Part shown: piece after piece, positions 13,675 through 56,040 of the stretch | Layout of the letters: each line of letters starts with the position of its first letter | Numbering within the stretch: the first letter of the stretch is position 1 | NCBI GenBank assembly: GCA_025201365.1 | Contig: JAIXMF010000007.1 | Span: 558,001-622,000, forward strand | Source of the DNA: Syncephalis plumigaleata | Taxonomy: Eukaryota; Zoopagomycota; Zoopagomycetes; Zoopagales; Piptocephalidaceae | DNA length: 64,000 nucleotides | Direction of reading: 5' to 3' | The notes under the pieces: generated by a model | Told to the model about the DNA's origin: nothing | Seen by the model: only the letters and a program-made list of their open reading frames with translations | The model's database searches: none | Position numbers and translations under genes: made by a program

Positions 13675-14976
13675 TGCTAACCAATGGATAGATGACGAGC
13701 GTAGTAGTTAACGAGGAATAGAGCGGACTATGAACACGCTCGACCCTTCTCTCTAGCATCACACACGAGCGCATATGGTTGACGACAAACTACGGGTTCT
13801 CGTTTCCCAAACGAGGGAAAGCAGAAAAAAGGGGAGAAGGAGCGGAGCAAATGGGTAAGTGATAGGACTGTCTGTTATCGACTATTGCGGTTAATGTCTA
13901 GCATAAGATAGAACAAACTATAGAGATATAGCAATACGATGAATGGAATAGTGACAGAGAACGAGAGAGAGAACGAGAGAGTAAAGGATTGATATATAAT
14001 GGAACAAGTCATTAATTAGCCTCTATGTATCTGGCCTTCTTGGTCGAGGTGGTCACGCGCTTACACTGTTCAACAATGAACATCATGACTAAAGCGGTGT
14101 TATTACGTATAAACATGTAAATAAAGATGTGACACTAACATCTTATGTGTCAGCATGACTATTATCAAGTGAGAGTCGTATAAATGCTTATGCTTTATTC
14201 CAGTAACCTAATCTTATTGCTGCTAACTGATATAGATTATCATATTTTGAATTACTGATTAATTAAGGGCTTAGTATACTAGACTTATCAGTATATTCAT
14301 CCTAGAGGCCTCTATTCAAATAGTCTGGGCACTCAGGAATGATAAATGATAGCATGCCTTGGAATAAACAACAACGAAAATACTATTGAAATACAAAGTG
14401 ACATAGAATGATTAGCATCTATGTTAGAATTAATTAGCTAACTATTCCTGTTGGATAATAAACTGCTTTAGCGGAATCATACTATATCGTAGTATCAATT
14501 TGTACAAGATCCTCGCCGGAGCAATTACTATTCGTAGTAACTCGCGATTGAATAGATGCTTACATGCTGACTTGTCCGAAACTAGCCCAATCCCCCACGA
14601 GGTGCAGCTCATGGCGCGTTTCGTTATTCTGAATTTAGAAACACAAGCTAATGAAAGAAAAACGTTCGTATTTTCTTTTATCCGTCTCTACTTAATAAGA
14701 GTAGTCTGCCATCGCCACTGTTACTACTGCCTTCTCCTTCTCCTTCTCCTTCTATTGGCATCTAACGCTTTTCTTTTTCTATAGTTTACTACTAAGTTAC
14801 TTCCACTATTGCTATTCTTTAGTCTTTCTAACGAATATAACGCATTTCACATTCACCTAGAAACAATACTCCTTGATATTGGTCGTTTTCACATACTTAT
14901 CTCCTTTCTCTCTCATTTACTTATTCTAACCGGTGGCTTGAAGTACTTTTAATTATCGTAATTGTTATAGCTAATT
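13675..14976. other. divergent spacer between transporter and first apyrase
   Basis: No gene was recognised in either strand. It should contain the promoters of the transporter (-) and of the apyrase (+). Small GAGA tracts lie near 13955-13980. A pyrimidine-rich block (CTTCTCCTTCTCC) lies at about 14728-14755, some 230 bp before the apyrase start. Confidence 0.5.
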
Positions 14977-16435
14977 ATGGCTACTTACACGTTAAACCGT
15001 GTAGTTAACGCGGTATTACTAACCGGAATCCTTGCACTTTATGTCGTTACACCAGTAGCTGCAGGAGTAACTGGCTGCAGTCAAAGCGCTTGTCGTACCA
15101 AGGCATCAACACCGACATCACCGACATCAACACCGACGACACCATCATCACCATCATCACCATCGTCACCATCGTCTGTTGATCAATTGGATTCAAGCAA
15201 TACCAGTTATGGTTTACTCATTGATGCCGGCAGCAGTGGTAGTCGTATTTATCCCTTCTACTGGAGTAGTATCAGTAGTAATAGAACACACGTTGCCGTA
15301 CACCCCTTACTTAACGCTGAAGGCACCGCACAACTGGAGGCCAAGGTGAAGCCGGGCCTGTCGAAGCAAACACCAGAATCGGTGGCAGCGTATCTAGAAC
15401 CGCTAATTAAGAGTGCCACCCAGTTCATCCCACAAAGCCATCATGCCAGCACGCCCATCTACCTTAAAGCGACAGCGGGTATGCGTCTAGTACCGCAGGA
15501 CGAGCGACAGGCGCTTATCAATGCTACCGTTGCCTTTATGAGCGACAAGAGCAAGGTGCCATTCGAGTTCGACGAGAAAGTAGGCGCTCAAGTGATTCCA
15601 GGTGAACAGGAGGGTGTTTACGGCTGGCTCGCCGCCAATACGCTGCTTGACGAATTACGCACGTCGAATCAGACAACGGTGGCTGCCTTGGATTTGGGCG
15701 GTGCCTCCACACAGATCACCTTCCAGCCAGCGGTGTCGCCACTTGAGGGCATGTACGCGGCACGAATTAACGGTACAAATCACAATCTATACACGCATTC
15801 TTACTTATGCTTGGTGCGGATGAAGCACGTAAACGCGTTGTAGCCTCCATGGTTGCCAATGCCACTACCGCCAATGGCAATAGTAATCGTGCCATTCGTG
15901 ATCCATGTCTATTCCATGGTATGAAGGCTAGCTTCCAATTGGACGCTAATCGTACCGTATCCCTTGTGGGTCAGGCCAATTCGAGCAATGTCGCGCGTCG
16001 TTGAACCACGTACTATTTGGACGTCGCAACTTTTGCGCCACTGAGCCATGCGCCATTAATGGTATTCATCAGCCTGATATCCCCGAGAATATGCCCATTT
16101 ACGCCACTAGTAGCTATTATCATACGGCTAAAGCGTTCAATTGCACCGGTACATCCACTCCTAACTGCGTGTTAAAGGCCGCCGAAACCAAGTGCAATCA
16201 ACTATCGAATGAAGCGGCGAAGCAAGCGTTCAACAACTCTCCCTTCCTAGACTCGTTATGCTTTAATGCCGCCCTTTCCATCGCCTTATTACACGATAGT
16301 TATCGTATTCCACTTGATCGTAAAGTCGAATTCGCCGACTCATTGCCAAAAGGCGTGCTTAATTGGGCACTTGGTGCGATGGTGAATATCGTTAATGACA
16401 TTGGCCTTAACTTGATAGAGAAAGTAGTTGAGTAA
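14977..16435 (+). CDS. secreted apyrase (GDA1/CD39 nucleoside phosphatase), frame-broken copy
   Basis: Hydrolyses nucleoside tri- and diphosphates in the secretory pathway or outside the cell. A signal peptide (VVNAVLLTGILALYVVTPVAAG) is followed by a Ser/Pro/Thr-rich stretch built on ACCATC-like repeats, then the apyrase conserved regions: ACR1 IDAGSSGSRIYPFYW, ACR2 KATAGMRLV, ACR3 PGEQEGVYGWLAAN, ACR4 LDLGGASTQITF, and a C-terminal LGAMVNIVNDIGL. Compared with the paralogue at 21663-23139 the frame slips twice: near 15811 (after HSYL, a 4-nt shorter stretch than in the paralogue) and at about 15975-16003 (around GGCC, before LFGRRNFCATEPC). Residues on either side stay well conserved, so recent loss of function or assembly indels are both possible. 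It has no intron where the paralogue has one. The Fanzor element starts about 410 bp downstream. Confidence 0.85.
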
Positions 16436-16847
16436 CATTAATGATTTGTCCTACTCTCCTCTTCACGAACAATCGAATATTCCTTTCAATAAACGACTCC
16501 GTTCTACGATATTAACAATCTATATTATTGCTCAACCCTTATCTATTACAGTAACAATATCAATTATTCCCACTCTTATGCTGATGATGATGCTGATGAG
16601 GATGGCATGTATTATCTGCATTAATTTAGCGAAACATCGCACTGTATACGCATGTATTGCGTATTCGTTCATTGCCACTTTCTATTCGTGATAAACCTGT
16701 TTATTCATGACGTGGAATGGCGGTGTTACATGTTCAACAACAAAAGAAGGAAGGGGCATAACAAAAAAAGAACATTCTTTCTTGTTAGAATACTATTATT
16801 CCTACTTTCTACTAAATACTACATATGCTGTTGCTCATTATTAACTA

Positions 16848-16873
16848 CAGACTTTTTCCATCCAATTTGCGCA
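16848..16873. repeat. left terminal inverted repeat of Fanzor element A
   Basis: Reads CAGACTTTTTCCATCCAATT followed by TGCGCA. It is the reverse complement of 20937-20962 except at two positions near the outer end. Confidence 0.85.
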
Positions 16874-16955
16874 GTTAGCCTTTTGTCTTTACGAACAAAT
16901 AATAGTTATAATAACACTTACGTATTTTCGTGAAAGATAGCTATAACTATCCCGG
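16848..16955 (-). ncRNA. candidate Fanzor guide-RNA scaffold (3' end of element A)
   Basis: In TnpB and Fanzor systems the guide RNA scaffold lies at the 3' end of the nuclease gene and reaches the element end, the guide being read from flanking DNA. Here the 108 bp between the Fanzor stop and the element end are matched, over about 95 bp, by the corresponding ends of elements D (from 42826) and E (from 55640). Shared blocks include AGTTAGCCTTTTGT, AATAATAGTTAT and CTTACGTATTT (plus-strand text). Transcription and fold were not tested; selection for transposase binding could also explain the conservation. Confidence 0.35.
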
Positions 16956-19290
16956 TTAATTTGATTTTCGTTGTTTGGACCCCCGTTGTCCTTGTCCTCC
17001 TCTCTTTGAACGCTTAGAAGGAACGGCACCTCGTTGGAATTGTGTTGGAATACCATCTCCATTGCGAGCACTGCGGATAATCTGAATGAAGTTCAGACAT
17101 GCAGCCATATCCCGATTCCATAAACGATACTCGAATTTTTTAATTGGCTTGTTGTCTTTATCCAGCTCGATCTCCTCGTCCTTCACGTCCTTCGTGCCCT
17201 CTTGATTCTTCTTGTCATCCACTTCCATCATATCCTCTTGCTCCTCCTCGTCATCTACGTCCATCATATCCTCTTGATTCTCCTTGTCCTTCTTGTCCTT
17301 CTCGGCCTTTATATCTTTCATGGCTTCTTTACAAGTTTGATGTGTGCATCTAATAAAATAATTAATTAATATATTGTAATAAATTGCAAAGTGTAATAAA
17401 TTGTACTTACCTTAAGAGGCCATGACAGATAATTTTATGCCTGTCTTCATCTTTCTTGGGTCGAGGATTTGTGACCATCCTGTACGTCTCGAGCGTGGGT
17501 TTGTTGCAGGCAGGGCAGCACTTACTGGTCATATACTCGTCGATTAGAAAGACTTTGAAATGTCGTTTCAAAAGCCTTCTAAAGCCAATACCACGTATGG
17601 GCTCGTGATATCTGGCATGAGGAGCGGACCAGTCGCCCATTACAAATACCGCATCCTCACCGAACTTCTCTCTTAACCCTTTGATCAGCTTTTGATCACT
17701 TTGCTGCTTAGTGATGTAGGCTGACAGTTTCAGCTTCCTGAAAAGAGGATGGTGGGTAGGATGGTCGGTGGTGGTATCACGGTAAAAGGTGGTGAGAACA
17801 TCTGTGTGCTGTGCTCGACACCTCAGATAGTCCTCATATTCCGGTAGAGATACAGAGTTGCCCTTGGATCTTGAGAGAGCTGCCTCGGCATCCAGCACCG
17901 CCTGATTTCCCTTTTTGCACTTCTCGCGAAGCTTGCGGTATCCCTTCGTCCTCCGCGTCTTGTCTTGACATGACTTTGTGTACCGATACTGGACCTTATC
18001 AGTAGATGTCGAGTCTTCGCGTACACAAAAGAGTAAATCCCTTCTTCCTGGGTCCACGGCCACGCATTTGTCTTTGAACTTTTGTTGTGCCGTAATACTT
18101 AAGTCGGTGAGATAGTCGAAGGACTCCTCTGTTGGTTTTGCTGCTGGTGACTTCGTTTCCCCTTCCTCGGTGTCCTCGTCGTCGTTCTCGTCGTCGTCAT
18201 TCTCGTCGTCGTCATTCTTTTCGTTCTCCTTTTTGATCTTCTTGAGGACCGTGACACCAACGCCATCGGTGTCAATCGAGCCAGAAAACTCGAGCTCACC
18301 TTCCTTTTGAGTATCGAACGGCTTCAACTCGAGATTCACGGCATCCTTCCAATAGTCCCTCATATAATCCATACTCACAAACTTGCGTTTTAAAAAGATC
18401 TCGCAAAGGATTTTGGTGTCGATATGGACGTAGCATGGTGAATAGGAACGGCGCAGGGGGAAGCAGTTGAAACCTTTTAAGCCGAGCTTCCTAAACAAGC
18501 GCGCAAGTTCAAGGAACGCTTTGAAATGCTTCACCGGGCGCGCTACACAGTCGTAGTAAATGCTCTTCTCAAACCTGTAGCGCTCAGGATACGCTTTTAA
18601 AACGGGCTCAAAGACGTCGAATGCCTCAGCAAGCTTAGGCATTTTCCTAAATGTCGTTCTACGCACACCTCGCTTGGCTATTTCCACCTTGAATGTTCTT
18701 ACTTCCTCAGTAATTTCCTTACTGATTTTGTTGCGAAGGTCAGTTTCAGTTAATTTCTTGTAGAATTGCTTCCTCATATCCTTTACCCGCTCCTTGACAT
18801 CGAAGTGCTTGTTGACGGCACGCCGAAGGAACTCGCCAAAGCGCAACCTGACGTTGTTGGTGTAAGCGACGTACATCTTCCTTGCCTCATAGGTTGCTGA
18901 TTGACCAGCATAGAGTAACACCAGCGGTTGATAGCGAGCAATGCGAAGGTAATCATCCAAATGGCTATAGATGACTGCGCGAAATTCTGCTGTTGTGCCT
19001 TTGGTGTGCTGTGTTTCCCGCTGGATTAATGCAAGCCATACTTCTTTGAAAAAGCCTACACTTATATACTTTTCGAACCTAAAGTTTGGCTTATCAAGTT
19101 CTTTGAGTAGGATATGTTTCGCGAAGGAGTAGGCGTGGAAGGTCGTGGTGTGTACGATGTTTACGAAGTCGCGTAAAACACCACGACGCTCCTCCTTCCA
19201 ACCAATGCCGGAAAGCGAGGACTTCACAGCCAGAACTCGTTCACTGTCGGCAGAAGTAGACGAGCCATGAGTGCCTGGCTGTGACGCCAT
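16956..19290 (-). CDS. Fanzor RNA-guided nuclease (eukaryotic TnpB homologue), apparently intact
   Basis: Fanzors are TnpB/Cas12-related nucleases that use a guide RNA to cut DNA, encoded by eukaryotic transposable elements. Two exons, 19290-17411 and 17349-16956 (2274 nt, 757 residues), are in frame. The ATG at 19290 sits in TCCATGG, with a TATATAAAG about 105 bp upstream. Order of parts: helical N-terminal half (residues 1-400) ending in an acidic stretch (about 357-379); RuvC-I CVAVDPG (D413); VMGDW (about 551-554) at the RuvC-II position; IDEYMTSK (E585, T588, S589); zinc ribbon C592-x2-C595 and C628-x4-C633; and RuvC-III WNRDMAACLN (D707). This fits the published Fanzor pattern D-x(125-275)-[TS][TS]-xx-C4-RD, except for about 60 extra acidic residues before RD. 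The intron falls inside the zinc ribbon, just before C628. The C-terminal tail is basic (KRSKRGGQGQRGSKQRK), possibly a nuclear signal. Confidence 0.93.
17172..17279 (-). repeat. three 12-residue acidic repeats inside Fanzor
   Basis: Residues 651-686 are three 36-nt units: NQEDMMDVDDEE, EQEDMMEVDDKK, NQEGTKDVKDEE. They lie between the zinc ribbon and the catalytic Asp. The Fanzor remnant in element E has no such insert, so this is probably a lineage-specific expansion. Confidence 0.85.
17350..17410 (-). other. Fanzor intron
   Basis: Donor GTAAGT (17410-17405) and acceptor TTATTAG (ending at 17350). Removing these 61 nt joins CHGLLR to CTHQTC in frame and completes the zinc ribbon. The acceptor is conserved in the decayed copy at 55943, so the intron is older than the split of the two copies. 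Confidence 0.85.
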
Positions 19291-19395
19291 GGATAAAATG
19301 GAATAGTATTTAATGCAATAGCAGTATGTTAAAACGAGCACAGTTACAATATGAAGGGTTAATTAATCTTTTATTTTATTGTAGTATAGACGCTT

Positions 19396-19404
19396 CTTTA
19401 TATA
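19396..19404 (-). promoter_or_regulatory. TATA-like box of the Fanzor gene
   Basis: TATATAAAG on the minus strand, about 105 bp upstream of the Fanzor ATG. Spacing suits a short 5' leader. Inferred from sequence alone. Confidence 0.45.
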
Positions 19405-20936
19405 CGTGGCACGTTGGTAGTACTAACTGCGTGGATCTGATGACGTAGGGGTGAAACGCTCGTGCAGACACATACAGGAAGGGTGAATCTATTATGGTAA
19501 GTAGTATCATTTACAGCGCAACACAGTAAGACTCGTATCATCTAGTGTCATTGTAGCAATGGTATAACGCCGCTTAGAACACAGCAATCGGTAAGCATTA
19601 AAGTACTAGTTAACACTTTATTAATGAAAGATTCGTTATTAATAAATGAACAGAGTCTTGTAATGGGTGTTAATATATTTATTTGCATTCTACTAATGCT
19701 ACCATTAGCAACTTCTCCTTATCTATTTGTTAACACTATTTGTTGTTGTTAATGGTTTACCAATCCACTCCAAGTATCCATTTCATTGTTGCTTCTCTTT
19801 CCCCTTTCCCTTTACTTCATTATCTACATTATTTCCTCCTCCTTTACTTCGTTAACAATTCTAATATATTTTCATTCCTCATTATCGACTGATGTATAAA
19901 CTCTTAATTTTCTTTATTAGTCAATAAAAGCATTCTCTCTCTTTCTCTTTACTATTGCTGTCTTTTTCGTACTAATCTCATTTCCCTTGTCACTCAGTAA
20001 CACACTTATTTGTGTCAACTACATTCCACTTGTCAGTAAACAATACGCGTCCACTTCTTCTTAACTATATGCTAGTTTTCTTCTTTCTTTTCTTTACCTA
20101 TTTACTTTCTCAGTAATACGCGTCTTCTTCGTGTCATTCACATTCCACTTACTTCCTCTTTCACTTTAGCATACACATTCCCAATAGCAGCTATTCTGTC
20201 ATACTATTTCTATGTCGTTTATTTATCTCTTTGTTTTCCTCTTGCTCTAAGCTATCTATATGCTCACTTGTCGTTATTATTACTATACCAATAAGCCTTG
20301 TTTATTGTTCGTTCTAGTCCTTTGTCTTCTATCACTGTCCTGCTTATTTATCAATGTTTAAGCGTTCACTACTCTCGTTGTAATATGCACCTTTTACTTT
20401 TACCGCTCTCTTCCGTCATCTGTTTGTATGCCACCCTTACGTCATGCTTTTATTTGTATTTTACTTGTTTACTGCCATCTCCATACTCTATTCACATACA
20501 AGCATACATTGCTTCTTCAAATAAACTGGCATACGTGTTCATGCACCCTTCCTCGCTCATTCCTTGCTCCTTCGTGACAAGTCAGTCATTCTACTAACTA
20601 CTGCTTGTTTATTACATTGTTTATCGTGTATTCTATTTGTTCACTCGTTGCTCTCTATGCAATTGACCGTAAGCATTATTACAATAGCTTATATATCATA
20701 CTAATCAATAGCTACTTGTAAGTACATGACATGGCAATATCCAACTATACTAGTACATTTGTATCATCTACCTTATAGAATTGATGATGATAGTTATCGC
20801 TATCAATAAATGATCCATTATTAATACTGAATTGTTATTATTATCATGCTGTGTCAATTGGCATTTCTACGCTAATAATGGTGTTAACAATTGTGCAAAT
20901 CCATTTATTAGTAAAGAGCAAACGTTAAAGGATAAA

Positions 20937-20962
20937 TGCGCAAATTGGATGGAAAAACACTG
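20937..20962. repeat. right terminal inverted repeat of Fanzor element A
   Basis: Ends ...GGATGGAAAAACACTG and is followed by TA. The same end is found, inverted, at 28481 (copy B). Confidence 0.85.
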
Positions 20963-21459
20963 TAGTTGAGTAATGATTGTAGAACAATTACACCACATCT
21001 AATACAATAATCACCATCATTATTAGACAAATAACGCCAACTCAATGTATTATCCCTCGTAATTTGTTAAGGTCGCTATTTTATAGTTACTGAACGATGA
21101 TCATTGGCAATCTAGATGAAACATGGATGGCGAGGTATCCGTCTTCCATTTGGCGCATACGAACTGGTATTGTACCAATTACTGCGCGGAATCATTCATT
21201 TTGTCACATGTTTGGCTGGATTCTTGTATAACCAGTACGGAAACACGGGCACACGCAGAGTAAAATAATTGAATGTCACCAGCGTAGTATAGCCGCTTAC
21301 GTGCGCCCACACAGACAGGCCAACAGACACATGCTAGAGGCCTTGTCCACATTCCTTACGAAGCGCATACTCCTCTTTTCACTTCCACATCATACAAATA
21401 GTGCAACTAATAAAAAAAGCGTAGAAATACTAGAACATCAAAGTGACTGGCTTCTTCCT

Positions 21460-21662: not shown

Positions 21663-23139
21663 ATGAAGTTATTACTTCGTTTGATTGGAGCCAGCTGGGT
21701 CGCTTCAGTCGTGCTGGTCGCGACCAGTATGTCCAGGATGGCGGAGGCCACTCCAGTCGATGAGGTTAGTACTATGATCATCTATAATAAGACTAGATTA
21801 TTATTATTGTAAGCAGCAGTTGTTAAAACTTTTCTTTTTCTTTACAATACTTCATTGGATATAAAAGTCAGCAAAAGCCTCAGAGTCATCGAAATCATCG
21901 GTTAGCTATGGTTTAATGATTGACGCGGGTACAGGCGGTACTAGAATCTATCCATTCTACTGGCAAACTATCACTCGCAACAATCTATACGTTCAGGTGA
22001 ACCCAGTTCTAAAGAAGAGTGGCAAGAAACCACAAAAAGCCAAGGTGACGCCAGGCTTAGCATTAAAGAGTCCGAATGAAGTTGCCGCTTATCTACAGCC
22101 ACTCATCGACAAGGCTAAAGAGTTCATTCCGCAGGATCAACACGCGAACACACCTATTCTATTCAAAGCCACCGCTGGTATGCGTCTGCTGCCCGTGTCA
22201 CGTCGTAATGAAGTAATGCGTGCGGTTATTGCATTCCTTAATGATCGATCTCAGGTGCCGTTCCGATTTAACGCGGCCAACGGTGCTCAAATCATCTCAG
22301 GCGAGCAAGAGGGCGTGTACGGTTGGGTTACCACCAATGCCATGATGGGCACGCTACGTGGATCGAATACGCAACAAGTCACGTTTGCCAATATCGATCT
22401 AGGTCGTGGCTCAACGCAAATCACCTTTAAACCACCGGTCGTTCCACTTGAGAACGCTTACATCACTCGAGTCAACGGTACCGAGTATGAATTGTACTCG
22501 CATTCTTACCTGCGTATGGGTTTGGAGGAGGCTCGTAGCCGTGTTATAGCATCACTCGCCGGTAACAATAACAACAAAGTGGATGATCCATGCTTGTTCC
22601 GCGGTACCGTACAGAATTACTCGCTTAACGATCGTACCGTTCAACTCGTTGGTCAGGGTCAATTCGACAAGTGTCGCGATTTAGCTAGACAGGTTCTACT
22701 TGGTCGCAACACCTTCTGTGCCACTGAACCATGCGCCATTAATGGCGTGCATCAACCTGATATACCAGATGGCATGCCTATCTACGCCACTGGCAACTAT
22801 TTCGATATTGCCGATGCCCTTAAGTGTGCCGGTAAATCAAACATGAATTGCATCGCACAATCCGCTCAAGGCTTTTGCTCGGGATCCGAAGGCAATGTCA
22901 AGAAGGACAAGGCCAAGAGTACCAGTGACGATGATGAAGATGGCGAGACGGATAATACCACATGTTTCGGTGCCGCATTATCATTGGCACTAACGGTCGA
23001 CAGCTACCGTATTTCATTGGATCGCGAGGTCAACTTTGTCGACGAGATACCAGCCGGTAAATTCAGCTGGGGTCTAGGTGCCATGATTGATACAATTGAG
23101 AACATCGGACTCTCCATTGCTACTAAGCCTAGTGCTTAA
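21663..23139 (+). CDS. secreted apyrase (GDA1/CD39 nucleoside phosphatase), intact
   Basis: Nucleoside tri-/diphosphate hydrolase of the secretory pathway or cell surface. Two exons: 21663-21764 (34 codons, signal peptide MKLLLRLIGASWVASVVLVA) and 21868-23139; the predicted protein is 457 residues, usual for a soluble apyrase. ACR1 is IDAGTGGTRIYPFYW, ACR2 KATAGMRLL, ACR3 SGEQEGVYGWVTTN, ACR4 IDLGRGSTQITF; the C-terminus has LGAMIDTIENIGL. Cys-rich segments such as NTFCATEPCAINGVHQPD suggest disulphides. ACR4 normally reads DLGGAS or DMGGAS; here Gly-Ala is replaced by Arg-Gly, and ACR1 has Gly for Ser, which may alter activity. It is the paralogue of 14977-16435 in the same orientation, with the Fanzor element between them. 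No C-terminal membrane anchor. Confidence 0.93.
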
Positions 23140-28285: not shown

Positions 28286-28480
28286 ATTATTACAAGTTTA
28301 GGACTGTTTAACAAAGTGAAGGATGCAAATGAAAATAATACTGTTGACTGAGGAATGCGTTGGTTTAGTTTGGGGGAAGAGCGAAAATGAATTAAAGCGT
28401 ACAAGTCGTAGAATGGGGGCGTGCGTTCGTGGAGTAAAGATAAGGATAAGTTAGAACGATTCATTTTACATTTCGATATA

Positions 28481-29866
28481 CAGTGTTTTTCCATCCAATT
28501 TGCGCATTTATCCTTTAACATTTGCAGTTTATTAATAAATAGATTTACACAATTGTTAACACCATTATCATTATAGAAATGCCAATTGATATAGCATGAT
28601 AATAATAACAATCCATGTTTAGTAATGGATCATTTATTGATAATGATAACTATCATCATCAATTCTATAAGGTAGATGATACAAATGTACTAGTATAGTT
28701 GGATATTGCCATGTCATGTACTTACAAGTAGCTATTGATTAGTATGATATATAAGCTATTGTAATAATGCTTACGATTGATTGCATATGAGTAGCAACGA
28801 GTGAACAAATAGAATACACGATAAACAATGTAATAAACAAGCAGTAGTTAGTAGAATGACTGACTTGTCACGAATGAGCAAGGAATGAGCAAGGAAGGGT
28901 GCATGAACACGTATGCCAGTTTATTCGAAGAAGCAGTATATGCTTGTAGGTAGATAGAGTATGTAGATGGCAGTAAACAAGTAAAATACAAATAAAAGCA
29001 TGACGTAAGGGTGGCATACAAACAGATGACGGAAAAGAGCGGTAAAGTAAAAGGTACATATTACAACGAGAGCAATGAACGCTTAAACATTGATAAATAA
29101 GCAGGACAGTGATAGAAGACAAAGAACTAGAACGAACAATAAACAACACTTATTGGTATAGTAATAATAACGACAAGTGAGCATGTAGATAGGATAGAGG
29201 AAGAGGAAAACAAAGAGATAAATAAACGACATAGTGATAGTATGGCAGAATAGCTGCTATTGGGAATGTGTATGTTAAAGTGAAAGAGGAAGTAAGTGGA
29301 ATGTGAATGACACGAAGAAGGCGCGTATTACTGAGGAAGTAAGCAAGTAAATAAAAGAAAGAGAATGCGGTTGCCACAAAGAAGGCGCGTGTTGTTTACT
29401 GACAAGGAAAATGAGGTTAGCACAAAGGAGACAGTATTGGTAAAGAGGTAAAGGGAAAGGAAAACAAGGGAAACAACTGGAATGTAGTTGACACGAAGAA
29501 GACGCGTGCTGTGTAAAGAAGTAAATGGCAAGGGGAATGGGCAATAGGTGGAATAGTGAATATATGCAGTGTGAAATGGGAATAGTGGCAAGCATGTGTA
29601 TGTAGTGGAAAGGTAGAATGATGGAGATAAGCGTAGTGAACGGTATGAAGCAATGGACAATTTGTCTTTATTGCTATGCGTATAATGGTAGTAGAATGGA
29701 ATAAATGACTTGTATTACTGATAGAAATGCCAGAATAGTAGAATGAGTAATGTAGAATGGAATGATTGATGCTGGATGAAAGAGAGGAACGAGTAGACTA
29801 AGATACAATGGAGCAATAATGGAATAGGAAGGTATAGAATAGAAAGAGGAGTAATGCAAACGGTAT
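28481..29866 (-). mobile_element. incomplete Fanzor-family element (copy B, inverted)
   Basis: Starts at TA|CAGTGTTTTTCCATCCAATT and is the reverse complement of the right, non-coding part of element A (about 19700-20962), with many small differences. About 850 bp of it (28764-29622) is almost identical to copy C at 39280-40133. No Fanzor coding sequence and no second terminus were found. A tyrosine-recombinase retrotransposon adjoins or interrupts it at 29867. Confidence 0.75.
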
Positions 29867-30000: not shown

Positions 30001-30102
30001 TCGGCAAACAACTGAATAAAGCGTTCTAGCAAGTCAAAATTTTTTATTGAAGAATATTCTTACCTTTATCTATCTATATTTCCATATATTTTATTTTATA
30101 AC

Positions 30103-31128
30103 ATGTCGGACGGGTCAAGTCAACAGAATTTCGAAGACGAAGAGCCTGCTGCTGTGCGCATATGTCAGGAGGATATGGCCGCAATAGCAGATCTAGTGTC
30201 TCAAAGGATGTTACAGAACCCCCATCGCCCAACTGGAGCTTCGGATCGTGCAAACAATAATGATCTGCAGGCGAACGGTACGAGGGCAGGTGCTAGTCAG
30301 GAGGCCGAAGCACCCGGTCTAATACAGGAGGGTGTCCAAGATGTTGAACGGGCACGACAGGTTGCACAGATTATGCAACGCGAGAGGGAACAGCGGGAGG
30401 CGAGCGAGAATCAGCTAGACCCTGATGAAGCGTCCGAGGACGAGGACCCTCGTGGGAATATAAAAATTACAAACGAAAAAGAAGCGGAAGTTCCAGTGGA
30501 GTTCGATCCAACATCGCCGCAATTTGTCGAATTTTTGCTTCGGATTACACATTTCTATGAATCGCCGTCGGAATATGCTCAGTCGCATGAATTATTGACT
30601 CCCTTCTTGGGTTTTATTCCCGTTGTTAATTATGTGGATCCACGGCCGCAAAATCTCTCAACCATTCACGATGAAATTTTCCCAAAGTTAACGGGAGAAG
30701 GACAGCGAGAGGGACGCGCGATGTTATCGCTGGTTTTGTACATCATCAGAACCATGCAGGCGTGGTCAGCTTGGAACGTTGAGTTGAAAAAAGGATCGCC
30801 TGGGTATTTGATAGTAGCCAGCATCCTACAGGTGATAGAGCGTACCGTACTTACCCGCTATTCGATGGTGAGAGCTCGTTTGGATTTGAGCGACGACGCT
30901 ATTCGACAGGTGGAGTCTAGATTGGATTCGGTCGGTATGATTCGATACACACACAATACCCAAGCTGAGATACTCCGTGCGCTGAGGAAGAAGGAAAGTA
31001 TGCAGGCTCATCGAACTGCAAACCAATCGTCTAGCAGCAAATCAAAGGCTTCAACGGCTACCGACGCCAAGAAACCCGCCAATACAACTCGAAATGGCGG
31101 TCCGGCGGGCGGTGCCGGTCATGCCTGA
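30103..31128 (+). CDS. retrotransposon ORF1, Gag-like
   Basis: First frame of the DIRS/Ngaro-like element, 341 residues. Acidic and polar N-terminal third, a helical middle (FVEFLLRITHFYESPSEYA, GRAMLSLVLYIIRTMQAW), and a basic Ser/Lys/Gly-rich tail. No zinc knuckle was seen. Called Gag-like from position and composition; it overlaps the start of the next frame by about 35 nt. Confidence 0.7.
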   Translation: MSDGSSQQNFEDEEPAAVRICQEDMAAIADLVSQRMLQNPHRPTGASDRANNNDLQANGTRAGASQEAEAPGLIQEGVQDVERARQVAQIMQREREQREASENQLDPDEASEDEDPRGNIKITNEKEAEVPVEFDPTSPQFVEFLLRITHFYESPSEYAQSHELLTPFLGFIPVVNYVDPRPQNLSTIHDEIFPKLTGEGQREGRAMLSLVLYIIRTMQAWSAWNVELKKGSPGYLIVASILQVIERTVLTRYSMVRARLDLSDDAIRQVESRLDSVGMIRYTHNTQAEILRALRKKESMQAHRTANQSSSSKSKASTATDAKKPANTTRNGGPAGGAGHA

Positions 31129-33100
31129 TTCGAACTCGCCACCTCCAGGCGATCGGCCCCTGCACTTAAGTGTAAGATCGGCCTGGAAACGGTGGCATCA
31201 TATAGGGGCGAACGGAAGAGTGTTGAAGTGGATCCGGCGTGGTGTGACGGTACCTTGGGCAGCAGCAGGCGCGCCCTCACCTTTTCATCATCAATCCTAC
31301 CAGGCCCGCGACCCAGCGGAAGTCCAGTTCCTCGAATTGGAAGTTCAACGGTTGTTGCAAGCCGGTGCAATAATCGAAATCCCAGAGAGTCAAGCCAAAT
31401 ACGTCTCACCAACCTTCTTGATTCCTCGCAAACCGCAAGGCTATCGACTGATAATCGACCTACGTTATTTGAATCAGCATTGTCAGGAAATGCCTATGCG
31501 ATACGAAGACCTGCGCGTGTTAAAATATCTGGCACAACCCAACGACTCCGCTATCGCCTTCGATTTAAAGGACGGCTATCTAGCAGTAGGAATCAGGCCC
31601 AGTCAGCAACAGTACTTCCAAACGAAGATACTAGGAAAGTATTACCAGTATCAGACTCTACCGTTCGGTTGGAACCTGTCTCCTTATTTCTTCGTCAAGG
31701 TAATGCGACCCATGGTACAGTATTTGCGCGGGCTAGGTTTGCGATGTCTAGCTTACTTGGACGATTTTCTGATCCTACTCGACCAGCAGCAGAAGAAGGA
31801 AGGATGGCCACAAAAGGTACAGCTACTGTTGAGGAGCTTAGGTCTACGAGCGCATCCAACAAAATGTACTTGGACACCTACGCAAGTCATAGATCATCTC
31901 GGTTATCGGTTAGATTTTGCAAAGATGGAGTTTCAATTAACCGACGCGTATCGCGAAAAAATAAAGCTTACCTTATTACACGCCTTAAAAGAGTGTGCCA
32001 AGAAGACGCGAAAGCTCGACGCAAAGCAGTTAGCTCAGGTTACAGGCATTGTCATAGCCGCACGACACGCGATTCCATACATCATGATACATCTCAGAGC
32101 GCTATACAACGATCTACGCGGAAAGGAAAGTTGGAAGGTCAAAGTCAAGGTCAGCAACGCCAGTATACGGGAGATGCGACGAATCTTACGAATCGTGAGC
32201 GATCAGCCAGCCGCACCGATAAAGCAACGTCCAGCACAGTTCACCATTACTACCGACGCGTCAGACGAAGGGTGGGGAGCGACAATGGTGGAAGAAGGAG
32301 GACGGGAAAGATTAGCTTACGGTCAGTGGTCAGAGGAGGAGAAAGAGTTGCACATTGTCCATCGAGAGGCGTTGGGGCTTTTATACGGCGTAACGGCCTT
32401 CAAGACTTTCCTACACAATTCCACAGCACAGGCCCGAATGGACGCGCAGGCATCGATTGGCGCGCTAAATGCACACGCATCTTCCAGCGCTTCCTTGCAC
32501 AGCATCGTGAGACGCGTATGGGAGCTATGTCAACGAAACAAGATACAGCTATTGGGGTTGATTCAATATTTGCCAGGAAGATACAACGTAGAAGCGGATT
32601 TCTTGTCGCGAATAATACAAAAATCAGATTGGCAACTACCCAAAGCAATGTTTCAAGAGATAGAAGACGCATACGGACCTCACACAATCGATCGATTCGC
32701 AGCCGGGTGGAACGCACAGCTACCGCGCTACAACTCGCTCAACGTCAACGATGGCTGCGAAGGAGTGGACGCTCTACAGTGGTCATGGAAAGGGGAGAAC
32801 AACTTCATCAACCCTCCTTTCGGACTCATCGGGGTAATCCTCAACAAGCTGGTAAGAGATCAGGCGCAGGCTACCGTCATATTGCCCAGATGGACCAGTC
32901 AACCTTGGTGGCCGTTGGTGCTCAAGCTGATGGTTTCCACATTGGAGGTAGACTCACCTCGGGTATGGGCGAACATATTGTCCAACACCGACGTAATGCC
33001 GGAGCCTCTCGTCAATCCCGCTTGGAAGATATTGGTAGCCCGGTTGGACGGAGCGAGACTTTGCGCGCCCAGATGGTGCGAAGTTGGATGCAACAACTGA
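31094..33100 (+). CDS. retrotransposon ORF2, reverse transcriptase and RNase H
   Basis: 668 residues. Reverse transcriptase motifs in order: VSPTFLIPRKPQGYRLIIDL, FDLKDGYLAVGI, LPFGWNLSPYFFVKVM and the active-site YLDD (CLAYLDDFLILL). RNase H-like part follows (ITTDASDEGWGATM, HIVHREALGLL). The C-terminal region has the DIRS-type motif TIDRFAAGWNAQLPRYNS and FINPPFGLI. Looks whole. The frame overlaps the recombinase frame at its 3' end. Confidence 0.88.
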   Translation: MAVRRAVPVMPDSNSPPPGDRPLHLSVRSAWKRWHHIGANGRVLKWIRRGVTVPWAAAGAPSPFHHQSYQARDPAEVQFLELEVQRLLQAGAIIEIPESQAKYVSPTFLIPRKPQGYRLIIDLRYLNQHCQEMPMRYEDLRVLKYLAQPNDSAIAFDLKDGYLAVGIRPSQQQYFQTKILGKYYQYQTLPFGWNLSPYFFVKVMRPMVQYLRGLGLRCLAYLDDFLILLDQQQKKEGWPQKVQLLLRSLGLRAHPTKCTWTPTQVIDHLGYRLDFAKMEFQLTDAYREKIKLTLLHALKECAKKTRKLDAKQLAQVTGIVIAARHAIPYIMIHLRALYNDLRGKESWKVKVKVSNASIREMRRILRIVSDQPAAPIKQRPAQFTITTDASDEGWGATMVEEGGRERLAYGQWSEEEKELHIVHREALGLLYGVTAFKTFLHNSTAQARMDAQASIGALNAHASSSASLHSIVRRVWELCQRNKIQLLGLIQYLPGRYNVEADFLSRIIQKSDWQLPKAMFQEIEDAYGPHTIDRFAAGWNAQLPRYNSLNVNDGCEGVDALQWSWKGENNFINPPFGLIGVILNKLVRDQAQATVILPRWTSQPWWPLVLKLMVSTLEVDSPRVWANILSNTDVMPEPLVNPAWKILVARLDGARLCAPRWCEVGCNN

Positions 33101-34062
33101 ATCTACCTGTCAACGTGAGCGATGAGCAGCGTGAGCGGCTTATGTTGTTATTCGAACGGCAGTATACAGCAGCATCGTGGAATACATACACTTCGCATGT
33201 GACTAATTATACGCGTTTTTGTGAGTTACATAACGAGCCGCCATTCCCTTTGCAGGTGGGTACATTAGCAGCTTACATCGCCACAGCCAGTCTGCGAGAA
33301 CTGGCTCCATCCACAATTCAATCGCGCCTTTCGGCGCTACGGTCAATCAACGAGCATCTCGGCTTCCCGGAAATCGAGGGCTCGTTGGTTGCACAACTAA
33401 CGAGAGGATACGCGTCGTGGTCGTACACTGAACGACCCACCGTATCCTCCAATCACAACTTTTTCGCATCCTCCTGGCTGGCCCCATTGGTGTCGGGGGA
33501 TACGCAGTCTCCAAGCCAAAAGGAGCTGCGCGACCTGGTGGTGGTTTTAGTAGGTTTATTGTGTGGGTTGCGCGCGTCCTCTCTGATGAAACTTCAGAAG
33601 AGTGACGTGCAATTGGTAGGCCCTACCCTACGGGTAGTGGTTCATGGTTCTAAGCGTCATACGCATGAACCTGGACGGCCTATCAACATCGACACCACTA
33701 AAACCATCGCCGCCCCCCTCATTCGCCGATACCTGGAGTCGGCATCATACATCAACAACACGGAACCAACGTTTTGGGTTCCCGTGTTCTCCTCTAAAGA
33801 GATATTTAGGAGCAGTGTTACAGTTACGGGGATTCTAAGAGAGGTGTTAAAGCAAGCGGGCGTGCCAGCAGCCGTTGCTAATTCGATGATGTCCCATAGC
33901 ATTCGACGTACATTCACTTCAGCTACACACAGTATTGGTGTAGACGCTTCGCGAATCATGCATTATGGTCTATGGGAGACCATAAGCTCGATGCAAAGGT
34001 ACGCGCGGCCAGAATATGTCCCTCATCCATTTGACTATGCTTTTTATAACTTCATGTTATAA
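33073..34062 (+). CDS. retrotransposon tyrosine recombinase
   Basis: About 329 residues. N-terminal SAM-like/core-binding part (RQYTAASWNTYTSHVTNY, PSTIQSRLSALRSINEHLGF), then the catalytic half with LLCGLRASSLMKLQKSDV (first catalytic Arg), SHSIRRTFTSAT (H-x-x-R box) and a terminal SMQRYARPE (nucleophile Tyr). This replaces the DDE integrase of LTR elements. The start is uncertain; expression may depend on overlap with ORF2, as known in the order. Looks whole. Confidence 0.85.
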   Translation: MVRSWMQQLNLPVNVSDEQRERLMLLFERQYTAASWNTYTSHVTNYTRFCELHNEPPFPLQVGTLAAYIATASLRELAPSTIQSRLSALRSINEHLGFPEIEGSLVAQLTRGYASWSYTERPTVSSNHNFFASSWLAPLVSGDTQSPSQKELRDLVVVLVGLLCGLRASSLMKLQKSDVQLVGPTLRVVVHGSKRHTHEPGRPINIDTTKTIAAPLIRRYLESASYINNTEPTFWVPVFSSKEIFRSSVTVTGILREVLKQAGVPAAVANSMMSHSIRRTFTSATHSIGVDASRIMHYGLWETISSMQRYARPEYVPHPFDYAFYNFML

Positions 34063-39279: not shown

Positions 39280-40133
39280 TATCTTATCCCACTACATACA
39301 CATGCTTGCCACTATTCCCATTTCACACTGCATGTATTCACTATTCCACCTATTGCCCATTCCCCTTGCCATTTACTTCTTTACACAGCACGCGTCTTCT
39401 TCGTGTCAACTACATTCCAGTTGTTTCCCTTGTTTTCCTTTCCCTTTACCTCTTTACCAATACTGTCTCCTTTGTGCTAACCTCATTTTCCTTGTCAGTA
39501 AACAACACGCGCCTTCTTTGTGGCAACCGCATTCTCTTTCTTTTATTTACTTGCTTACTTCCTCAGTAATACGCGCCTTCTTCGTGTCATTCACATTCCA
39601 CTTACTTCCTCTTTCACTTTAACATACACATTCCCAATAGCAGCTATTCTGCCATACTATCACTATGTCGTTTATTTATCTCTTTGTTTTCCTCTTCCTC
39701 TATCCTATCTACATGCTCACTTGTCGTTATTATTACTATACCAATAAGTGTTGTTTATTGTTCGTTCTAGTTCTTTGTCTTCTATCACTGTCCTGCTTAT
39801 TTATCAATGTTTAAGCGTTCATTGCTCTCGTTGTAATATGTACCTTTTACTTTACCGCTCTTTTCCGTCATCTGTTTGTATGCCACCCTTACGTCATGCT
39901 TTTATTTGTATTTTACTTGTTTACTGCCATCTACATACTCTATCTACCTACAAGCATATACTGCTTCTTCGAATAAACTGGCATACGTGTTCATGCACCC
40001 TTCCTTGCTCATTCCTTGCTCATTCGTGACAAGTCAGTCATTCTACTAACTACTGCTTGTTTATTACATTGTTTATCGTGTATTCTATTTGTTCACTCGT
40101 TGCTACTCCTATGCAATTAACCGTAAGCATTAT
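39280..40133 (+). mobile_element. partial Fanzor-family element (copy C)
   Basis: About 850 bp almost identical (only a handful of differences seen) to the reverse complement of 28764-29622, and clearly related to the non-coding half of element A (about 19950-20680). Similarity stops at GTAAGCATTAT near 40133; the terminus CAGTGTTTTTCC is missing. No coding sequence. With copy B it makes a large inverted repeat around the retrotransposon and kinase. Confidence 0.8.
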
Positions 40134-40435
40134 CATAATTTAATCTATGAATAACAAGTTATTATGCAATGCTACTACATAATGCATGCTTTATTAATTG
40201 ATAACTATCTCGATACTAATAGCAATAATAATAGGAATCAGATAACGCGCAACTATTAGTGTTCGTGGTATCATTGTTTTGATATTCATACGAATATATA
40301 CAGTCAAATGTGCTTTCCAATAAACTCATAATCGATAAGTTGTTGTATTGCTCGCTTCATCCTTGTAATAACACGGTCATATTCATCCGATCCTATCATC
40401 TATATATATATTCGCTTGCAACTGAACTATTCAGT
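40134..40435. other. spacer
   Basis: About 300 bp of AT-rich sequence with no recognisable feature. It forms the 3' flank of the TMEM230-like gene. Confidence 0.5.
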
Positions 40436-42825: not shown

Positions 42826-43053
42826 CAGGGCTTCCATCCAATTTGCGCAGTTAACCTTCTATTTTACAAATAAATAATAGTTATGATAATAAAACTTACG
42901 TATTTAGATGTGAGTAGCGATAATCCTCAACTGCTAGGGCAATGACAACTACTCAATAATAATAGCAATGCGATAATGATGTTAACAATTGTACAAATCT
43001 ATATACTAATAAACACAAAAGACTAACATTGTTAATCAGTTGGAACAGCACTG
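42826..43053 (-). mobile_element. 228-bp miniature element derived from the Fanzor element (copy D)
   Basis: Flanked by TA (42824-42825, 43054-43055). Left end CAGGGCTTCCATCCAATTTG, right end ...CAGTTGGAACAGCACTG. The left ~95 bp match the Fanzor 3' end of element A (16848-16945), and the right ~80 bp match its other end (from GTTAACAATTGT inward). It is therefore an internal-deletion derivative with no coding sequence, keeping both termini and the putative guide-RNA scaffold. Confidence 0.85.
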
Positions 43054-55509: not shown

Positions 55510-55735
55510 CTTGTACTAGTGCCTAATAATAAAGTGAATAACTACTGGATAGGAATAAGGTAGAAAAAGAAAGAGTGCGATTTATAATGATATGATACGT
55601 GAAAGCAACGTGCTAGTCATTGATGGAATATAATTGGTACAAGATTTTCCTTCTGATTAACGCAGCTAGCCTTTTGTTTTTACGAATAAGTAATAGCAAT
55701 GATAATACATATTTAGACGTGAGTAGCGATAATCA

Positions 55736-56040
55736 TCACGGATAAGTTGTTTCTTGTTGTCCTTCATTTCTTGAACGTTTAGAAGTAATGACATTTTGAT
55801 GTAGTTGTGTTGGAACACCATTTCCATTGCAAATACTAAGAATAATTTGAATAACATTCAGACATGCTGCCATATCCCGATTCCATAAATAATACTCGAA
55901 TCCTTTACCATTCATGTCATCTTTACAATTCTGATGTGTGCATCTAATAGAATAATGAATTAGTCTATTGTTATAGATTATACTCATTTAAGAAGGCATG
56001 ACAAGTGACATAGGATATCTCGTCAATTAGAAAGACTTGA
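55736..56040 (-). pseudogene. Fanzor remnant (C-terminal part)
   Basis: From 55943 to 55736 the frame matches Fanzor exon 2: CTHQNCKDDMNGKG, EYYLWNRDMAACLNVIQIIL, GVPTQLHQN, KRSRNEGQQ. It has the same acceptor (TATTAG|ATGCACACATC). Upstream (about 56040-55990) is VFLIDE, as in the intact gene, but the first half of the zinc ribbon is deleted and everything before it is gone. The catalytic Asp of RuvC-III is kept. It lacks the ~60-residue acidic insert of copy A, so the short spacing between zinc ribbon and RD is probably ancestral. Confidence 0.85.

Follow-up and report, generated by a model that had tools for sequence, protein, structure and literature searches.

We examined a 64,000-nucleotide stretch of the Syncephalis plumigaleata genome (contig JAIXMF010000007.1 of assembly GCA_025201365.1, positions 558,001 to 622,000, on our contig C351; hereafter the window) and found in it a 4,115-bp mobile element with an intact gene for Fanzor1, an RNA-guided nuclease. 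The element is most likely a non-autonomous, Tc1/mariner-type transposable element, and it belongs to a large family composed mostly of gene-less copies, which we call ghosts. The observations as a whole are probably best explained by a flank-guided retention device. Here, Fanzor would bind a predicted omegaRNA scaffold of about 76 nt that ends at 16848, and the flank past the scaffold end would aim it. It would then cut TA target sites in which an AA[A/C]TA-like motif is followed by a matching flank. Such sites are versions of the locus that lost or never received the insertion, and repair from the occupied copy would bring the element back. Further guides would come in trans from ghosts that end in the same way, and a transposase from elsewhere, perhaps from a 4525-bp DDE_3 mariner, would provide mobility. 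We favour this reading because the protein is homologous to two biochemically proven Fanzor1 nucleases and retains their catalytic positions, because the ratio of non-synonymous to synonymous substitution rates (dN/dS) is 0.29-0.55 in all 55 pairs among 11 open Fanzor copies, because a conserved block of about 76 nt in the omegaRNA position is kept by ghosts, and because an orientation-specific flank bias occurs together with empty TA sites.

The Fanzor gene is unbroken and its spliced product has 757 amino acids, which with the stop codon agrees with the two-exon gene of 758 codons in an earlier interpretation made without database searches (the sequence-only reading). That reading did not give the strand, which is minus. 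The best solved relative is Fanzor1 of Parasitella parasitica (PpFz1; 9cf0, E = 2e-112), followed by that of Spizellomyces punctatus (SpuFz1; 8gkh, E = 1.1e-39), while the match between GtFz1 and the exon 1 protein was weak (E = 0.14). The RuvC triad D413/E585/D707 aligns with the DPG/DPN, DEF/DEY and NRD motifs of PpFz1 and SpuFz1, and a C4 zinc ribbon (C592-x2-C595 and C628-x4-C633) precedes the last aspartate. The order VDPG, DEYMTSK, zinc ribbon and RD (here WNRD) described in the sequence-only reading is thus found in the protein. Judged by these alignments it is a Fanzor1, in line with the Fanzor that had been proposed, and its homology to solved structures predicts a RuvC fold. It lacks, at residues 509-517, the cyclophilin-binding FRI insertion of about 100 amino acids found in PpFz1 (chain 987-1096), and has between the second cysteine pair and D707 an acidic linker (637-700) that PpFz1 does not have.

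A profile search had been suggested earlier as a check. A Pfam scan of the protein gave no match above the cut-off (PF07282 scored 12.1 bits against a required 26.3) and PF07282 had no matches in the whole genome, whereas the sequence match to Fanzor1 proteins is strong. A profile check in that library would therefore have missed this Fanzor. The closest of 66 database relatives, from 8000 candidates scored, is 64% identical, so the window gene itself was not met as an annotated protein among those candidates.

Both ends of the element are present. A TA stands on either side, so that the element including its TAs covers 16846-20964 and has the target duplication expected of Tc1/mariner elements, and 24 of the 26 positions in the terminal inverted repeats are identical. 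The Fanzor gene is the only sizeable gene of the element: the 1.67 kb upstream of it contain no stop-free run longer than 100 codons, and no transposase gene was found inside the window element. The flanking TAs, the 26-bp inverted ends and the unbroken gene between two termini all stand as first described, but the term "complete element" holds only for a non-autonomous one. The placing of the intron is supported by matches of a Mucor relative, which continue through an in-frame TAA at the intron point in many copies. The features are as follows.

16831-16845, minus strand: predicted guide, the first 15 nt of flank past the left end, which on the gene strand read 5'-GTTAATAATGAGCAA-3', placed from the anatomy of the element
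16846-16847, no strand: left TA target duplication; empty sites of other family copies read flank-TA-flank
16846-16921, minus strand: predicted omegaRNA scaffold, 76 nt, GTAAGTG to ...CTGTA, with a possible 7-bp stem GUAAGUG/UAUUUGU
16848-16873, plus strand: left-type terminal inverted repeat (CAGAC...)
16956-17349, minus strand: Fanzor exon 2, with the rest of the zinc ribbon, acidic linker, D707, basic tail and stop
17350-17410, minus strand: intron, 61 nt, GTAAGT...TTATTAG, the sole splice choice among those tried that gives 757 amino acids
17411-19290, minus strand: Fanzor exon 1, REC/WED/RuvC with D413 and E585, and the first cysteine pair
19291-20936, minus strand: 5' non-coding part, including a module at 20009-20745 with 88-91% identity to Fanzor copies that have only 74-91% identity in their coding DNA
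20937-20962, minus strand: right-type terminal inverted repeat (CAGTG...), found as an end-pattern match
20963-20967, minus strand: TA target duplication and predicted target-adjacent motif 5'-AACTA-3' (gene strand), from the flank bias in 88 copies

The guide of SpuFz1 is reportedly 14-15 nt long.

The family is large. A 28-base end pattern (26 fixed bases, at most three mismatches) occurs 936 times (472 + 464) in the 32.6-Mb assembly of 383 contigs, many of the small ones looking like haplotigs. The reversed pattern occurs nowhere, so the element ends are far above chance. The exact 35-base right end was found 96 + 101 times and the exact 34-base left end 142 + 128 times, both with controls of zero. 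The exon 1 protein has 95 genome matches in about 41 places, a figure reached by manual merging with haplotigs counted in. Eleven of these places are one open match spanning the whole 626-residue exon 1 query, and the copy closest to the window Fanzor has 88% protein identity. Among 59 distinct complete end pairs, 56 combine one left-type (AC/GC/CC) with one right-type (TG/GG) end. Ghosts measure 214-1226 bp and cluster near 230, 545, 600 and 1,030-1,226 bp, a distribution that is no census since end pairs were chosen mostly below about 1.3 kb. Two longer members are interrupted by other elements. One 4,185-bp pair (L065, 301-4485) is a ghost broken by a 1163-residue frame with reverse transcriptase and RNase H, of the non-long-terminal-repeat type, and contig C182 seems to carry the same ghost without the retroelement insert. 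In L036 (C1:568862-573526), the Fanzor gene is split by a different DDE_3 mariner with a 380-residue frame.

The Fanzor genes of the family are under purifying selection. It is improbable, in our judgement, that the window element is a fossil whose gene is intact merely from youth, with nothing expressed. Many sister copies are indeed broken or carry stops, as would suit a fossil. Against it, Fanzor copies at a synonymous divergence (dS) of 0.4-0.6 are still open, dN/dS stays below 0.56 in every pair, and in the C-terminal 57 codons it is 0.32 in eight Fanzor copies vs. 0.73 in 22 ghosts (51 of 81 rows left out for indels or low identity). The window copy may still be active, as first suggested. 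This possibility fits the open frame, the presence of both ends, the intact omegaRNA-like terminus and the family-wide purifying selection.

The last ~76 nt before the element end are conserved in 20 Fanzor copies, with GTAAGT invariant in all of them and most of the remainder invariant as well. An RNAalifold consensus pairs GUAAGUG with UAUUUAU over 7 bp. The omegaRNA scaffolds of PpFz1 and SpuFz1 are 75 nt long with a 7-bp SL1 (PMC11423790). Because length and stem agree with these two systems, and the position at the 3' end of the gene does too, we propose the 76 bp as a predicted omegaRNA. The same place is kept in most ghosts. Of 48 ghosts measuring 539-1226 bp, 45 have GTAAGT at a distance of 70-78 nt from the terminus, and none of seven in the ~230-bp class do. 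Ghost left ends resemble distinct Fanzor lineages: L079 is 99% identical to L058, L027 99.6% to L033, and L003 99.3% to the window element.

We oriented the flanks by the left-type end and compared them in a first set of 52 independent elements. Before the right-end TA, A predominates at position -5 (27) and -4 (32), and position -3 has A in 26, C in 15 and T in four. The combination AA[A/C] precedes the TA in 16 of 52 elements on the 5' side, and its mirror image on the guide side occurs in four of 52 (Fisher p 0.005, paired Wilcoxon p 0.0013). It recurred in nine of 36 further right ends (40 before duplicates were removed), where 1.55 were expected. With both sets joined, AA[A/C]TA is found at 25 of 88 sites, vs. 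455 of 10,927 TAs in the window (4.2%), and the window element's own site is AACTA. We therefore predict AA[A/C]TA as the target-adjacent motif. The corresponding motifs are CATA for SpuFz1 and ATN for PpFz1, although section 4 of the account in Cell swaps the SpuFz1 and GtFz1 motifs relative to that in Nature. As the element's left end reads CTGTA at the motif place, the occupied site would be no target.

The flank bias could also stem from the transposase. A sizeable minority chance falls to the explanation that the Fanzor is real but without a retention role, and that AA[A/C]TA comes from a transposase whose target preference depends on orientation. The left-type and right-type ends show a consistent difference at two positions, one of each being present in nearly every complete pair, which would allow such a preference, and the motif is equally frequent in insertions with an empty allele. 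On the other hand, the 26-bp ends are otherwise identical, mariner target preference is generally symmetric, and the ATA core of the motif agrees with the published CATA and ATN.

Probes of the form flank-TA-flank, made for 54 elements, found at least seven clear uninterrupted sites elsewhere in the genome (at least 70 of the 74 bases aligned, at 92-99% identity) and at least three further, weaker matches (86-93%). These counts are lower bounds, based on the 40 candidates scored out of 121. Insertions are thus polymorphic, and the empty sites prove both the TA targets and recent movement of the family.

Besides a possible transposase origin of the bias, several results weigh against flank-guided retention by Fanzor and an omegaRNA. 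None of 14 pairs in the proposed stem changed on both sides, so no covariation was found there, and the window scaffold taken singly folds with a z of -0.34, 57 of 200 shuffles folding equally well. Ghosts of ~230 bp, which are without the 5' part of the scaffold, have AA[A/C] in two of ten cases, too few to tell. The prediction of the retention model that motif-bearing elements are less often heterozygous did not hold: with allele classes assigned by hand, the motif score was 1.7 for ten elements with an empty allele, 1.8 for ten with both alleles occupied and 2.0 for 34 others (p 0.45). These equal scores mean that heterozygous insertions lend no support to strong homing. Two elements, L010 and L087, have the full motif and yet an uncut empty allele.

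One site was found in two forms. Contig C106 (24.9 kb) carries a 545-bp ghost at the exact window site, and its flanks agree with those of the window over 812 bp on the left (2 mismatches) and 4018 bp on the right (33 mismatches). In its arms this ghost has 98.2% identity with the window element, and both carry two variants found in none of 26 other ghosts. All five substitutions between the two forms fall within 102 of 550 arm positions beside the junction (p 2e-4). The C106 ghost is probably the other haplotype of the window site. It has the same deletion junction as the 26 other ghosts, of which a few are allelic pairs and whose arms differ by up to ~20%. As a fresh deletion is unlikely to recreate the family junction, we infer that the interior was exchanged by recombination with another copy. 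Beside the junction the right arm shows 96-100% identity with 27 ghosts and 84-92% with 14 further Fanzor copies, which fits an exchange of Fanzor-bearing and ghost forms in either direction.

The two forms would not be alleles if the assembly were in error or if a fresh deletion had recreated the family junction by chance. C106 is just a 24.9-kb contig, and the breakpoints show a 2-base microhomology (TA), judged by eye. Yet the long agreement of the flanks, the junction common to ghosts with such different arms, and a window interior whose next copy has 88% protein identity make this explanation unlikely.

Exchange is not confined to this site. Across 31 Fanzor and ghost copies the left arms form a mosaic (none of 5000 permutations gave as low a value). 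The 0.74-kb non-coding module has 88-91% identity in 11 lineages, although their coding DNA matches that of the window at just 74-80%. Exchange among family copies, as read from these alignments, is general. A more doubtful extension is that Fanzor acts as a trans retention device for the whole ghost population, each member of which would supply a guide of its own. Through breaks made by Fanzor or excision, Fanzor genes would move from one ghost site to another by gene conversion, and the window locus would be a ghost whose nuclease was acquired, or lost, on the spot.

A source of mobility may be at hand. Among 31 genome matches to DDE_3 transposases are five 4525-bp elements of identical length with a 383-residue transposase and exact ends TACAGGGTTTTTCCAACCAGTTGGCATT (TACAGGGTTTTTCCAACC...), at C39:1853-6377, C90:380462-384986, C116:3190-7714, C344:8326-12850 and C362:900763-905287. 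Their ends have TACAGNNTTTTTCCA in common with the Fanzor family, which is thereby related at its ends to a DDE transposase element in the same genome, as in Tc1/mariner elements. On these ends the DDE_3 mariner is perhaps the mobiliser of the family. The transposase fills about a quarter of the 4525 bp, and shorter versions, 2566 and 2621 bp long, occur. No Fanzor gene was found in this mariner with the Mucor relative as query, most of the interior being unread. Pfam DDE_1 (pogo type) had no matches in the genome, and since control genomes also had none, the absence of this type is not shown.

Elsewhere in the window, the element lies between two tandem GDA1/CD39 nucleoside-phosphatase genes (14974-16435 and 21868-23136). 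Pieces related to the element include a right-type end with ~950 bp of the non-coding right module (28479-29426; 91% identical), in which no Fanzor gene was seen, a partial relative (39471-40139; right module 90%), a short ghost-like piece (42832-43013) and a diverged left-arm piece (55645-55979; 72-86%). Overlapping frames at 30016-34062 match reverse transcriptase/RNase H, a Dam-like methyltransferase and a tyrosine recombinase (Phage_integrase), and we label them DIRS-like.

The host belongs to Zoopagomycota, which we take to be a fungal phylum other than that of Spizellomyces punctatus, and we found no literature on transposable elements of S. plumigaleata. Fanzor1 in mariner-type elements and omegaRNA-bearing ghosts are both already published (PMC3627910 and PMC10432273, respectively). 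Bao and Jurka (2013) described Fanzor-only elements with mariner-type terminal inverted repeats and TA duplications, such as PUl-4, which have the design of the window element in other hosts; the available part of that paper mentions neither Syncephalis nor "MITE" (PMC3627910). PpFz1 shares the same motifs and has, with its 75-nt omegaRNA and 7-bp SL1, the target-adjacent motif ATN (PMC11423790). TnpB of IS200/IS605 has the same proposed working, with a flank guide, cutting of the element-free site and repair from the occupied one. It is bacterial and works with another transposase, and drive was shown there experimentally, whereas for the window element it is deduced (PMC11870625).

A close parallel is S. 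punctatus, with 42 Fz loci and 134 ghost Spu-1 elements, and a working omegaRNA is published for such ghosts (PMC10432273). As there, the window family combines a Fanzor1 with inverted repeats, no transposase within them, a conserved motif upstream of the 5' repeat (CA in Spu-1) and many Fanzor-less copies that keep the omegaRNA, a predicted one in the window family; the Spu-1 scaffold of 75 nt extends over the 3' repeat, and the ghosts are ~550 nt long (PMC10432273). Differences from SpuFz1 are the distant protein (E = 1e-39), mariner-like ends, TA targets and the motif AA[A/C]TA. Unlike for ghost Spu-1, the window site is present in both forms, flanks, empty sites and dN/dS were measured, and the omegaRNA is predicted; a two-form site, an orientation-controlled flank bias and a selection measure on such a family were not met in the available parts of PMC3627910 and PMC10432273. 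The latter calls the biological role of Fanzor unknown and suggests trans help to ghosts. The S. plumigaleata genome is material for testing this, with hundreds of copies and with polymorphic insertions for which empty alleles exist. The end-matching ghosts of several Fanzor lineages, an orientation-specific motif and the two-form site would aid such a test, and the intact nuclease comes with a defined predicted guide and target (AACTA + GTTAATAATGAGCAA).

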